Translations under genes and position numbers: made by a program
In this document: positions 60,085 to 63,141 of the stretch, piece by piece
Position numbering within the stretch: position 1 is the stretch's first letter
Layout: each line of letters starts with the position of its first letter
Notes under the pieces: model-generated
What the model saw: only the letters and a program-made list of their open reading frames with translations
Told to the model about the DNA's origin: nothing
The model's database searches: none
DNA from: Phenylobacterium sp. NIBR 498073
Lineage (GTDB): Bacteria; Pseudomonadota; Alphaproteobacteria; Caulobacterales; Caulobacteraceae
Direction of reading: 5' to 3'
NCBI RefSeq assembly: GCF_027286305.1
Contig: NZ_CP114599.1
Span: 1,054,001 to 1,118,000, forward strand
Length of the DNA: 64,000 bases

Positions 60085-60714
60085 TTATCCCTGGTGGGTC
60101 TTGCCGAAAATGCCCATGTGCTCGAACACGCCGCGCAGGAAGGCGTCGTCGCCGCCCAGCGACTCCTTCAGATGGTCGAACTGCCGGAAGGAAAACATCT
60201 CGGCCAGGCCGTGAGCCGCGCTCCAGGCCGCGGTCGTGGCCAGCTCGAGTTCCTGTTCGTCCATCGGGCCGGCGCCGGCCTCGATCAGGGTGTCGCGCAC
60301 CTGACAGTAGGCGCTGTCGTTCTGCGCGTGGACGTGCTCGGGCAGGCTGTCCTTGTCGCGCGAGCAGTCGTACATCACCCGATAGAGGGCGGGGTTGTCG
60401 CGGGCGAAGCGGACATAGGCGACGCCAAGCGAGGTGAGCTTGTCGCGCACCGAGGTCTGGCTGGCGCGGGCCTGGGTCATCTGATCGTTGAGCAGGTCCC
60501 ACCCCTCGTGGGCGACGGCCTCGAGCAGATCGCTCTTGTCCTTGAAGTGGTGGTAGGGCGCGGCCGGGCTGACCCCGGCTTCGCGCGCCACGGCCCGCAG
60601 CGACAGCGCCGTCGGCCCCTCGGACTCCAGCAGCCGCTGGGCCGCGTCGATCAGCGCGCGGCGCAGGTCGCCATGGTGGTAAGGGCGATTGTCGGCGGCT
60701 GCAGCTTCTCTCAT
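60085..60714 (-). CDS. TetR-family repressor with WHG C-terminal domain
   Basis: A 209-residue repressor. The helix-turn-helix is at about residues 37-57 (LSLRAVAREAGVSPAAPYHH), followed by F-K-D-K-S-D-L-L. The C-terminal domain contains AAWSAAHGLAEM, the W-x-x-x-H-G signature of the WHG type. The ATG at 60714 is 21 bases from the first of two 19-bp palindromes in the divergent promoter region. The likely targets are its own gene, the microprotein gene at 60848 and the second microprotein gene at 62254, all near the same palindrome type. gluQ follows 10 bases downstream. Confidence 0.88.
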   Translation of the reverse strand: MREAAAADNRPYHHGDLRRALIDAAQRLLESEGPTALSLRAVAREAGVSPAAPYHHFKDKSDLLEAVAHEGWDLLNDQMTQARASQTSVRDKLTSLGVAYVRFARDNPALYRVMYDCSRDKDSLPEHVHAQNDSAYCQVRDTLIEAGAGPMDEQELELATTAAWSAAHGLAEMFSFRQFDHLKESLGGDDAFLRGVFEHMGIFGKTHQG

Positions 60715-60734
60715 AGCGGTCACTCTAAAACTGA

Positions 60735-60785
60735 ATCTGGACGCCGTAAAGATCATCTTGACGACGTTCAGATCGCTGTTATCTT
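60735..60785. promoter_or_regulatory. Tandem 19-bp TetR operators with divergent promoters
   Basis: Site 1 is ATCTGGACGCCGTAAAGAT (60735-60753) and site 2 is ATCTTGACGACGTTCAGAT (60755-60773). They share the pattern ATCTGnACGnCGTnCAGAT and are centred 20 bp apart, so on the same face of DNA. Site 2 covers a TTGACG box (60758-60763) with TATCTT (60780-60785) 16 bases on, towards the microprotein. Site 1 covers a TTTACG box on the other strand (60750-60745), towards the tetR gene. Confidence 0.82.
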
Positions 60786-60847
60786 AGCGGTGTTCAAATT
60801 ACAAAGCCCTCGCTCCCCCGAGGGTGCCAACTTGGAAGGTGTGTGTG

Positions 60848-60961
60848 ATGTCTCTCGCTCGTTTCCATCGTTTCGAACGTCTCTTCGACCGTATTGCGCC
60901 GGTCGTGCTGATCGCCCTGAGCGTCAGCCTTGCGGGCGCTACGCTCGCTGTCGGCGCGTAA
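60848..60961 (+). CDS. Membrane microprotein, 37 aa
   Basis: A 37-residue gene too short for normal annotation. An N-terminal basic part with R-F-x-R-F-E-R-L-F-D is followed by one hydrophobic helix (APVVLIALSVSLAGATLAVG). It is clearly related to the 35-residue protein at 62254: both have R-[LI]-F-D, then V-V-x-I-A-x-S-x-x-L-A-G-A-T-x-x-V-G-A, with 16 of 30 aligned residues identical. AAGGTG lies before the ATG. It is preceded by tandem TetR-type operators and followed by a strong terminator, so it is a complete small transcript. Confidence 0.72.
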   Translation: MSLARFHRFERLFDRIAPVVLIALSVSLAGATLAVGA

Positions 60962-60987
60962 ACGGCCGATCTTCCAGTCAGTGTCGA

Positions 60988-61015
60988 AAGGGGGCCGGCT
61001 TCGGCCCCCTTTTTG
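60988..61015 (+). terminator. Terminator of the first microprotein gene
   Basis: AGGGGGCCG (60989-60997) pairs with CGGCCCCCT (61002-61010) over a GCTT loop, followed by TTTTTG. It lies 28 bases after the microprotein stop and supports a separate, very short mRNA. Confidence 0.92.
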
Positions 61016-61065
61016 TTGCGCGATCCTCTAAGGGCAGGGCCTTATCCAGTCTCGGGGAGGGGCGG

Positions 61066-62121
61066 ATGTCTCGCGATCTACTTGGCGACATGTTCGGCGC
61101 GCTGGCGACTGATCGCCAGGAGGCGGCGCGCGTGGCGTTGCGACAGGTGGCCGGTCGGCGGTCGATTTCCAGCCTCTCGTCGGTATCGGGCGGTGCGTCG
61201 GGCGCAGCGATATTCCGCGCCGAGATCGAGGGGCGGAGCTATCTGCTGCGGGTGGAGGGCCCCGAGCTTCCGGGCTTGCCGCGCAATCCACATCGGCACG
61301 AATGCGCGCGGCTGGCCGCCGAGGCCGGGATCGCCCCGGCCATTCGCCATCTCGACGAGACGTCGGGGGTCATGGTGACCGACTTCGTCGAAGCGCAGCC
61401 ATTGGAGGCGTTTCCAGGAGGAGAGCTGGCGCTGGCGCGGGCGCTCGGCGAGCTTGTCCATCGGGTCCAGTCCGGCCCCGCGTTCCCGCCGCTGGTCGAC
61501 TATCTGGAGTTGATGGAACGACGGCTGGCAGGTCTTGTAACCTCTGGGCGGTTCGTCGCCGGGGCTCTGGACCCCCATGGTGAGCGTCTCGCGGCCATCC
61601 GGCTGGCGCGGCAGGAAGAGCCGCCGTCGCTGGCGCCGAGCCACAACGACCCCAATCGCGGCAACATCCTGTTCGACGGTCAGAGACTCTGGCTGATCGA
61701 CTGGGAGTCCGCCTACCGCAACGACCCTTTCGTAGACGTCGCGATCATGCTCGACAGCCTGGCGAGCGGCCCCGCGTTCGAGGCCGGCCTGCTGGAGGCC
61801 TGGCTCGGCCGGGCCCCGAACGCGACCGATCGGCGGCGTCTGGAACTGGCCCGTTCGCTCGCGCGACTCTACATGGCCTGCTTCCTGCTCGACATCGGAC
61901 CGCCGGCGGCTGCGGCCGCCGCCATCGACGCGCTGGATCCGGCCGACGTGCTAGGGGCGATCATCGCCGGCAGGCTGGCCCCGGGCACGCCCGAGACGGC
62001 GCAGGCTCTGGGGCGGATCTATCTGAGCGGCTTCCTGACTGGCGCGGCCGTGCCGGGTCTGGCCGCGGCCGTCTCCGCCGCCATGGGACTGCCGAAGGCG
62101 AGCTGGGACCCGCCTGCATAG
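61066..62121 (+). CDS. Choline/aminoglycoside-type phosphotransferase
   Basis: A 351-residue protein kinase-like-fold phosphotransferase. The catalytic loop is PSHNDPNRGNILF (H193, N194, D195, N200) and the magnesium motif is LWLIDWESA (D212), close to bacterial choline/ethanolamine kinases (LicA type). The N-lobe has S-G-G-A-S-G-A-A-I-F and the nucleotide lysine appears replaced in L-L-R-V-E-G. GGGGAGG precedes the ATG. It lies between the two microprotein genes and has no palindrome of its own; an open frame extending upstream to 60064 is not used. Confidence 0.83.
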   Translation: MSRDLLGDMFGALATDRQEAARVALRQVAGRRSISSLSSVSGGASGAAIFRAEIEGRSYLLRVEGPELPGLPRNPHRHECARLAAEAGIAPAIRHLDETSGVMVTDFVEAQPLEAFPGGELALARALGELVHRVQSGPAFPPLVDYLELMERRLAGLVTSGRFVAGALDPHGERLAAIRLARQEEPPSLAPSHNDPNRGNILFDGQRLWLIDWESAYRNDPFVDVAIMLDSLASGPAFEAGLLEAWLGRAPNATDRRRLELARSLARLYMACFLLDIGPPAAAAAAIDALDPADVLGAIIAGRLAPGTPETAQALGRIYLSGFLTGAAVPGLAAAVSAAMGLPKASWDPPA

Positions 62122-62143
62122 TTCCATGCATTTCTGAATAGCT

Positions 62144-62204
62144 TACATTGTAAAATGTATCTGTACATCGTTCAGATGTGGGCCTATCTAAACATCGTCC
62201 AGAT
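62144..62204 (+). promoter_or_regulatory. Paired TetR-type operators before the second microprotein gene
   Basis: Two 19-bp palindromes, ATCTGTACATCGTTCAGAT (62159-62177) and ATCTAAACATCGTCCAGAT (62186-62204), match the pattern at 60735-60773; they agree with each other at 16 of 19 positions. Just before them TACATT-gtaa-AATGTA (62144-62159) is another small dyad in AT-rich DNA and may hold the promoter. They start 95 bases before the ATG at 62254. Confidence 0.75.
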
Positions 62205-62253
62205 GGACCTGGGCCGGCGCCGCCGCCCCGGATCAACCAAGGGAGTGCAGATC

Positions 62254-62361
62254 ATGACCATCCTCAGCCAACTCGGCCGCATCTTCGACGCCAGCGTCAG
62301 CGTCGTCTTCATCGCCATCAGCCTGGGCTTGGCCGGCGCCACCGCCGTAGTTGGCGCCTGA
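62254..62361 (+). CDS. Membrane microprotein, 35 aa (paralogue)
   Basis: A 35-residue gene with an N-terminal amphipathic part (TILSQLGRIFDA) and one hydrophobic helix ending L-A-G-A-T-A-V-V-G-A. It is paralogous to the 37-residue protein at 60848. AAGGGAG precedes the ATG at a normal distance. The longer in-frame reading from 62155 runs through the operators and is rejected. A GC-rich dyad (CCCCGTCCG with CGGACGGGG, about 62378-62410) follows but has no T run. Confidence 0.7.
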   Translation: MTILSQLGRIFDASVSVVFIAISLGLAGATAVVGA

Positions 62362-62580
62362 TGCTTGGGCAGCGCGCCCCGTCCGCCCGGACCTGCGCCT
62401 CCGGACGGGGCCGCCGAGCTTCATTTCATGGAGCTGTCTCAAAAACCGGCCTATAATTCCCTGGCTACGGGAATTCCCCCAGTGGGCGATTCGCCGAGCG
62501 CTCGGATCGCGAAAGGGGGCCTGTCTTCAGTCTCTACGCGTACGACATAGGGGGGACCGCCCCCGCCCGGAGGGCCGACC
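62362..62580. other. Gap between the second microprotein and the HNH gene
   Basis: About 219 bp without a convincing gene. It contains the GC-rich dyad after the microprotein, a GGGAATTCCC palindrome at about 62469-62478, and GC-rich DNA leading to the HNH start. No promoter was assigned. Confidence 0.4.
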
Positions 62581-63141
62581 ATGCAGGTGCTTAACCACCC
62601 GCCGTCCGGCTGGCCCTGCCTTGTGCTGAATGCGGACTTCCGTCCCCTCAGCTACTATCCGCTGTCCCTCTGGCCGTGGCAGGAGGTGATCAAGGCGGTG
62701 TTCCTCGATCGCGTCGACGTCGTCTCGACCTACGATCAGGAAGTCCACTCTCCATCCTTCGCGATGAAGCTGCCCAGCGTGGTGTCGCTCAAGCACTACG
62801 TGCCGCAGGATCGGCCGCCGGCCTTCACCCGCTTCAACCTGTTCCTGCGCGATGCCTTCAGCTGCCAGTATTGCACGGCCGGCGAGGAGCTGACCTTCGA
62901 CCACGTGGTGCCGCGCTCGCGCGGCGGGCGCACGACCTGGGAAAACATCGTCACGGCCTGCGCGCGCTGCAACCTGATGAAGGGCGGGCGCACCCCGCAC
63001 GAGGCGCACATGCACCCGTTCAATGCGCCGCGCCGCCCGAGCGCTCACGAGCTGCAGGAGCGCGGCCGCAGGTTCCCGCCGCATCACCTGCACAAGAGCT
63101 GGCTCGACTACCTCTACTGGGACATCGAGCTGGAGGCCTAG
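62581..63141 (+). CDS. HNH endonuclease
   Basis: A 186-residue protein with the HNH core: zinc cysteines C95 and C98 (CQYC), catalytic D107-H108 in TFDHVVPRSRGG, N122 in W-E-N-I-V, and the second cysteine pair C127/C130 in ACARCN. The N-terminal 85 residues (VLNADFRPLSYYPLSLWPW) are the usual extension of the stand-alone HNH family common in Alphaproteobacteria, which has no known restriction partner. It is convergent with the monooxygenase gene with a 4-base overlap. Confidence 0.9.
   Translation: MQVLNHPPSGWPCLVLNADFRPLSYYPLSLWPWQEVIKAVFLDRVDVVSTYDQEVHSPSFAMKLPSVVSLKHYVPQDRPPAFTRFNLFLRDAFSCQYCTAGEELTFDHVVPRSRGGRTTWENIVTACARCNLMKGGRTPHEAHMHPFNAPRRPSAHELQERGRRFPPHHLHKSWLDYLYWDIELEA

Follow-up and report, generated by a model that had tools for sequence, protein, structure and literature searches.

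Why should a TetR-family regulator gene stand back to back with an open reading frame of only 37 codons, and why should a second frame, of 35 codons, follow on the same strand? An earlier note on this DNA had proposed that one repressor controls a small peptide regulon at the membrane, possibly in response to a lipid or choline-type ligand. The regulon is strongly supported by comparative genomics, candidate binding sites included, whereas the lipid/choline ligand is not. The window, meaning the whole stretch of 64,000 nucleotides that was analysed, covers positions 1054001–1118000 of a 4.29 Mb genome (G000 in the comparisons). Gene order is a glutamyl-Q tRNA synthetase gene, the TetR gene (minus strand), the 37-codon frame, an APH-type phosphotransferase gene, the 35-codon frame, and an HNH gene. 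The positions proposed for TetR, the kinase, both small frames, and four palindromes are all borne out by the sequence. The features of the locus are as follows:

60085–60714, minus strand: gene for a TetR/AcrR-family regulator with a WHG-type C-terminal domain, 209 aa from ATG 60714 (Pfam, ortholog alignment)
60735–60753, unstranded: candidate operator O1, ATCTGGACGCCGTAAAGAT, in the TetR-proximal part of the divergent region (palindrome scan, alignment)
60755–60773, unstranded: candidate operator O2, ATCTTGACGACGTTCAGAT, including the −35 element TTGACG at 60758–60763 (palindrome and promoter scans)
60781–60799, unstranded: weaker candidate operator O3, ATCTTAGCGGTGTTCAAAT, overlapping the −10 element TATCTT at 60780–60785 (sequence, promoter scan)
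60807–60824, plus strand: predicted leader hairpin CCCUCG-CUCCCC-CGAGGG (compensated stem changes, constant loop, fold)
60836–60850, plus strand: initiation motif AAGGTGTGTGTGATG, seen in eight genomes at microprotein genes only
60848–60961, plus strand: microprotein 1, 37 aa (HMM E 5.7e-18, the sequence itself being in the profile; family-level purifying selection)
60987–61014, plus strand: predicted intrinsic terminator 3′ of microprotein 1 (sequence and fold; missed by the pattern scan)
61066–62121, plus strand: APH-family phosphotransferase, a lineage-specific insert outside the module (domain scores, locus comparison)
62126–62158, unstranded: upstream element (ATGC..GAATA plus TTACATTGTAAAATGT) of the type seen at copies away from TetR
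62159–62177, unstranded: candidate operator O2 of copy 2, ATCTGTACATCGTTCAGAT (palindrome scan)
62186–62204, unstranded: candidate operator O3 of copy 2, ATCTAAACATCGTCCAGAT, over a −10-like TATCTA at 62185–62190 (palindrome scan; −10 read from the sequence)
62254–62361, plus strand: microprotein 2, 35 aa (HMM E 1.2e-12, the sequence itself being in the profile)

The regulator scores above the Pfam cut-offs for both the TetR_N helix-turn-helix (PF00440, 53.8 bits vs 24) and TetR_C_33, the WHG domain (PF13305, 53 bits vs 26.8). Based on ortholog alignment, 60714 is most likely its start and is favored over ATG 60756 because the latter runs TetR codons through an operator; for several close relatives, public gene predictions take a longer start that gives 223 aa. 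An AlphaFold model (pLDDT 84.6, pTM 0.80; 33 sequences) was compared with the PDB and matched best to 3on2 (E 3.7e-7, TM-score 0.74 by query length), which confirmed the fold alone and gave no ligand hint. This nearest solved structure, from Rhodococcus, has the same domains and fold and is itself titled a protein of unknown function. Listings from searches of open-licence PMC yielded neither a WHG TetR with membrane microprotein targets nor a published description naming the TetR–microprotein module.

The two small frames are paralogous, as had been claimed. The ORF lister, which takes the first possible start, gives frames of 45 aa (GTG 60824) and 68 aa (ATG 62155); the starts that give 37 and 35 codons were set by aligning relatives and by where the ribosome site lies. 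In the window's own genome, a profile built from 28 microproteins finds only these two copies, with the next match at E 0.95. The loci compared gave 133 copies, counted as distinct by leader and frame. Among 56 copies of 37 codons, 128 pairs with 72–96% DNA identity gave a pN/pS of 0.38 in the frame vs 1.40 and 1.77 in the other two frames, and pN was below pS in 127 of these pairs, which share ancestry and are not independent. Judged by these substitution patterns, the microprotein frames are under purifying selection.

The proteins have a regular layout. Their last 18 residues lack K, R, D, and E in 132 of the 133 copies, the distance from an Asp to the C-terminus is exactly 23 residues in 106 of the 128 distinct proteins, and the first 16 residues have a mean net charge of only +0.43. 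When these 106 proteins were reduced to 66 under 80% identity, small residues followed the Asp at +11 (66/66), +15 (65/66), +17 (65/66), and +22 (60/66). Helical periodicity was not significant in either the small-residue or the entropy pattern (permutation p 0.99 and 0.40), and a packing face of the helix is therefore only suggested. Neither peptide matches a Pfam or NCBIfam family up to E 0.1, and the one PDB match found with the profile (E 2.4) was taken as chance. Public names, read for 120 of 237 matches, are almost only “hypothetical protein”; among the matches listed, one cluster is also labelled in UniRef with a name starting “DedA family.” For C. crescentus, 94 small CDSs of less than 50 aa are reported (PMC4117421).

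The pair of repressor gene and divergent microprotein gene recurs across many Caulobacteraceae genomes. A TetR ortholog (E ≤ 1e-30) is present in 86 of 149 family genomes, and the microprotein profile matches at E ≤ 0.01 in 79, all of which also have TetR; none of the 63 family genomes without TetR has such a match. The seven TetR genomes without a profile match (G043, G051, G071, G082, G091, G116, and G123) each have a small hydrophobic ORF of the family pattern divergent from TetR, and a divergent microprotein stands beside TetR in 86/86 genomes, at a gap of 129–412 bp (median 182). With the single 37-aa query at E ≤ 1, 92 of the 149 genomes match, some of them without TetR; these TetR-less matches were taken as chance, the best one (E 0.039) lying inside a 596-aa frame. 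An exact-pattern scan of named genomes gave 63 stretches, 55 with TetR, the other eight coming from four unrelated organisms (L065, L067, L071, and L072) or lying near the edge of the available DNA (L069, L087, L095, and L098).

A spread beyond the family was considered and rejected. At class level, 10 of 385 genomes match at E ≤ 0.01, and the eight hits from outside the family align only in part, within open frames of 176–511 aa. At order level, 26 of 200 match at E ≤ 0.001; 25 are in the family, and the 26th is a stretch of 19 residues in a 527-aa frame. No convincing small ORF was found outside Caulobacteraceae in these 385 class and 200 order genomes. Within the family, five relatives (G144, G108, G132, G039, and G103) have extra microprotein copies amid unrelated genes, most of which also show the CTCCCC hairpin, the initiation motif, and a site resembling the operator.

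As had been described, two 19-bp palindromes precede each microprotein gene (60735–60753 and 60755–60773; 62159–62177 and 62186–62204). Allowing up to one mismatch on both strands, their pattern matches seven times in the window vs not once in 100 dinucleotide shuffles. The palindromes are rare in the genome as a whole: the scan that the note had called for, run at the same stringency, listed the four window sites and one other (G000:C1:4221578), and a looser pattern without mismatch returned the four sites and two other places. Copy 1 has the third, weaker operator over its −10; its −35 lies inside O2, and the −10 leads into O3. A promoter scan of this region found one promoter-like site vs 0.2 expected.

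The arrangement was surveyed in 127 of the 133 copies, six having too little upstream DNA for O2. An O3 site (at most three mismatches to the O3 model) lies over the −10 in 121 of the 127, and an O2 site lies 24–29 bp before O3, over the −35, in 100; the O2–O3 spacing is 26–27 bp in 106, O2 contains TTGAC in 78, and the O2 match is poor in 27. By sequence comparison, candidate operators are thus present and conserved at the promoters of the TetR and microprotein genes, and the loss of frames or palindromes in related genomes, which would have spoken against the regulon, is not seen. Across 12 genomes, 41 of 51 distinct operator places by manual tally are at microprotein or TetR promoters; the other ten include one decayed cassette (L150) and one efflux promoter (L151). 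In the decayed cassette (1230–1354, G144), the upstream dyad, the operator, and part of the leader are kept and the microprotein ORF is gone. Two weak microprotein matches (L139 and L142), of 18 regions compared, have no operator within 260 nt.

Copies away from TetR often have an additional upstream element, found in 31 of 49 such copies (as GCATA, GCATT, or GTATA) vs 0 of 81 TetR-side copies (GCATA alone), in an imperfect split made by short strings, where several of the 49 in fact adjoin TetR (for example, L031, L033, and the first copy of L165). At many non-TetR copies (62126–62158; L132–L149), the element takes the form of a further conserved dyad, ATGC(N6)GCATA, 5′ of the operator; in the copies listed, that operator lacks TTGAC. 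This dyad is possibly an activator site.

The strict pattern TCTTGACRNCGTNNAGAT, without mismatch, has 37 occurrences, spread over 30 of the 101 genus genomes, and therefore undercounts the sites and cannot delimit the regulon. By our count, 26 of these places are microprotein promoters (21 by HMM; L211 by eye, its ORF ending at a contig end; and G000, G088, G118, and G128 from the family search). Five are one identical coding site, an enolase by eye (L199, L200, and L227 inspected), and six are promoters of an efflux operon.

The efflux promoters may bear on the ligand. The operator is found at the −35 of this tripartite efflux operon in 5–6 of the 101 genus genomes (L151, L182, L192, L223, L225, and, more weakly, L183), one of the six places (G699) ending at a contig end and being assigned by its flank. 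The operon encodes a NodT-type outer-membrane factor (TIGR01845) and, as called by eye in G098, an HlyD/EmrA-like protein and an EmrB-like transporter. When 26 related pump promoters (L151 and 25 of 26 pump matches, the C-terminal piece L195 being left out) were compared with the first operator pattern, five had at most two mismatches, one had three, and 20 had at least four; the best site at the pump promoter of the window genome (L180) has six, i.e. the efflux operator is absent there. A different dyad, ACCGTAC or GTACGGT, is present at 22 of the 26, and another regulator therefore normally serves the pump operon; L151, L182, and L183 lack the usual ACCGTAC dyad in the 160 nt read. The efflux link depends on promoters that are homologous to one another and have a −35 in common; the operators found there hint at a xenobiotic ligand for TetR.

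Taken as a working model, inner-membrane peptides with a single helix would be under the control of a ligand-released TetR and would modulate a membrane protein; we consider this somewhat more probable than all other readings taken together. The dedicated TetR, probably self-repressing, would occupy the 19-bp palindromes at the −35 and −10 of every promoter concerned and so keep its own gene and at least one short transcript silent, until a small ligand, perhaps a hydrophobic or antimicrobial compound, releases the repressor. Each short monocistronic mRNA, with a 5′ hairpin in many copies, would then yield a protein of 30–45 residues, in which a charged N-terminal segment (FERxFDR) precedes a single membrane helix whose length is fixed, with 23 residues following the conserved Asp. 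The peptide would insert with its N-terminus inside, and its helix, with small residues at fixed places, may pack on a larger inner-membrane protein and alter its activity or stability. AcrZ, CydX, and KdpF are single-helix accessory peptides of membrane complexes that act by packing on a large membrane protein, as we propose here. The microproteins resemble them in their 30–50 residues and predicted single membrane helix. AcrZ, CydX, and KdpF have known partners; the microproteins match no Pfam or NCBIfam family.

The leader of many copies raises an alternative, namely a dual-function RNA that encodes the microprotein as its second product and whose CUCCCC loop would pair with G-rich sites, either in Shine–Dalgarno regions or in a G-rich sRNA. 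CTCCCC lies at most 110 nt upstream of the frame in 75 of the 133 copies (60 distinct windows), and a stem of at least 5 bp (G–U allowed) closes it in 67 vs 0.03 expected from mononucleotide shuffles. Stem pairs 1–5 are formed in 60, 59, 59, 58, and 55 of the 60 windows, with C–G, G–C, T–A, and A–T all occurring; these counts were made on ungapped windows, because the MAFFT leader alignment had moved stems with other closing bases one column out of register. In total, 291 of 300 cells are paired; when the 3′ arms were shuffled 1000 times, a control that ignores relatedness, the count averaged 225 and never exceeded 240. By this comparison of leaders, about half of the copies have a hairpin with a constant CUCCCC loop and compensated stems. 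In the approximately 1.0 Mb of DNA examined, 54 distinct stems of this kind are in leaders and five elsewhere (overlaps included), two of the five directly 3′ of a microprotein stop codon (L035 and L119). At up to one mismatch, AAGGTGTGTGTNATG has 18 matches across eight genomes, every one of them at a microprotein start.

C. crescentus offers parallels for such an RNA: SisA–D work via an anti-SD stretch (PMC12559287) and GsrN works via a 5′ C-rich loop (PMC5869019). The alphaR8/SisA–D RNAs expose a stretch rich in C and U that can pair with G-rich RNA (PMC12559287), and the CUCCCC loop might do likewise; unlike these sRNAs, it belongs to the 5′ leader of a gene that codes for a protein, and no Rfam family matches it, the search of 60600–62600 giving only two matches, to eukaryotic RNAs and far under the gathering score. 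Against an RNA function, moreover, 58 of the 133 copies, including window copy 2 and copies in other lineages, lack CTCCCC in the 110 nt upstream, selection acts on the frame itself, and the dyad at 60807–60824 scores terminator-like when read on the minus strand. We regard a dual-function RNA as unlikely. A combined version, in which TetR-released short transcripts deliver a membrane microprotein and a trans-acting CUCCCC hairpin as a paired envelope response, linked in some species to the drug-efflux operon, seems to us rather unlikely; if true, one repressor would launch peptide and RNA together.

The microproteins may instead be growth or division inhibitors that TetR holds off and that are released under stress, as with Caulobacter SidA and DidA, which have other regulators. 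Their size, the single hydrophobic helix, and operators over both promoter elements would suit such a role, and small inner-membrane division inhibitors are known in C. crescentus (PMC4211646). SidA and DidA, likened here by description, are very small inner-membrane proteins from the same bacterial family with a dedicated transcriptional signal, the former SOS-induced and the latter SOS-independent, and both act on the divisome (PMC4211646); the microproteins differ from them in their TetR regulator, their paralogs, and the hairpin in many leaders. Conservation is wide and under purifying selection, and a genome may have several copies (as many as nine matches in G103, where some lie at contig ends); both facts fit a tolerated function better than a poison, and we hold the inhibitor reading to be quite doubtful.

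The remaining alternative ties the peptides to the neighboring kinase. This kinase, taken for a LicA-like choline kinase in the earlier note, turns out to be a generic phosphotransferase of the APH type (64.9 bits for PF01636 vs a cut-off of 23.2) whose choline kinase score falls below threshold (PF01633, 14.9 bits, cut-off 29). Nor is it conserved with the module: among the 24 loci with two or more microprotein copies on one strand, it lies between copies in only two, the window genome and L042, where it is 88% identical over 337 aa, its only other occurrence among the loci compared. Gaps between copies are 144–389 bp in 21 of the 24. At L010 (1615–2433, G118), a minus-strand hypothetical protein occupies the kinase position, so that one gap has two different inserts. 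The single terminator of the note is indeed present 3′ of copy 1 and stands between it and the kinase; no U-tailed terminator was seen 3′ of copy 2. A lipid or choline response shared with the kinase, suggested by its adjoining the microproteins in the window and L042, is thus very improbable and largely refuted, because the kinase is a lineage-specific insert preceded by a terminator and relatives keep the rest of the module without it.

Returning to the model of a repressor with membrane peptides, the comparison defines a conserved microprotein family, delimits it taxonomically to the bacterial family of the model organism Caulobacter, and assigns to it a likely regulator, candidate operators, and an RNA element in the leader. 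The hairpin makes a combined RNA/protein function testable. Deletion of TetR should turn the peptides on and so point to their membrane partner.
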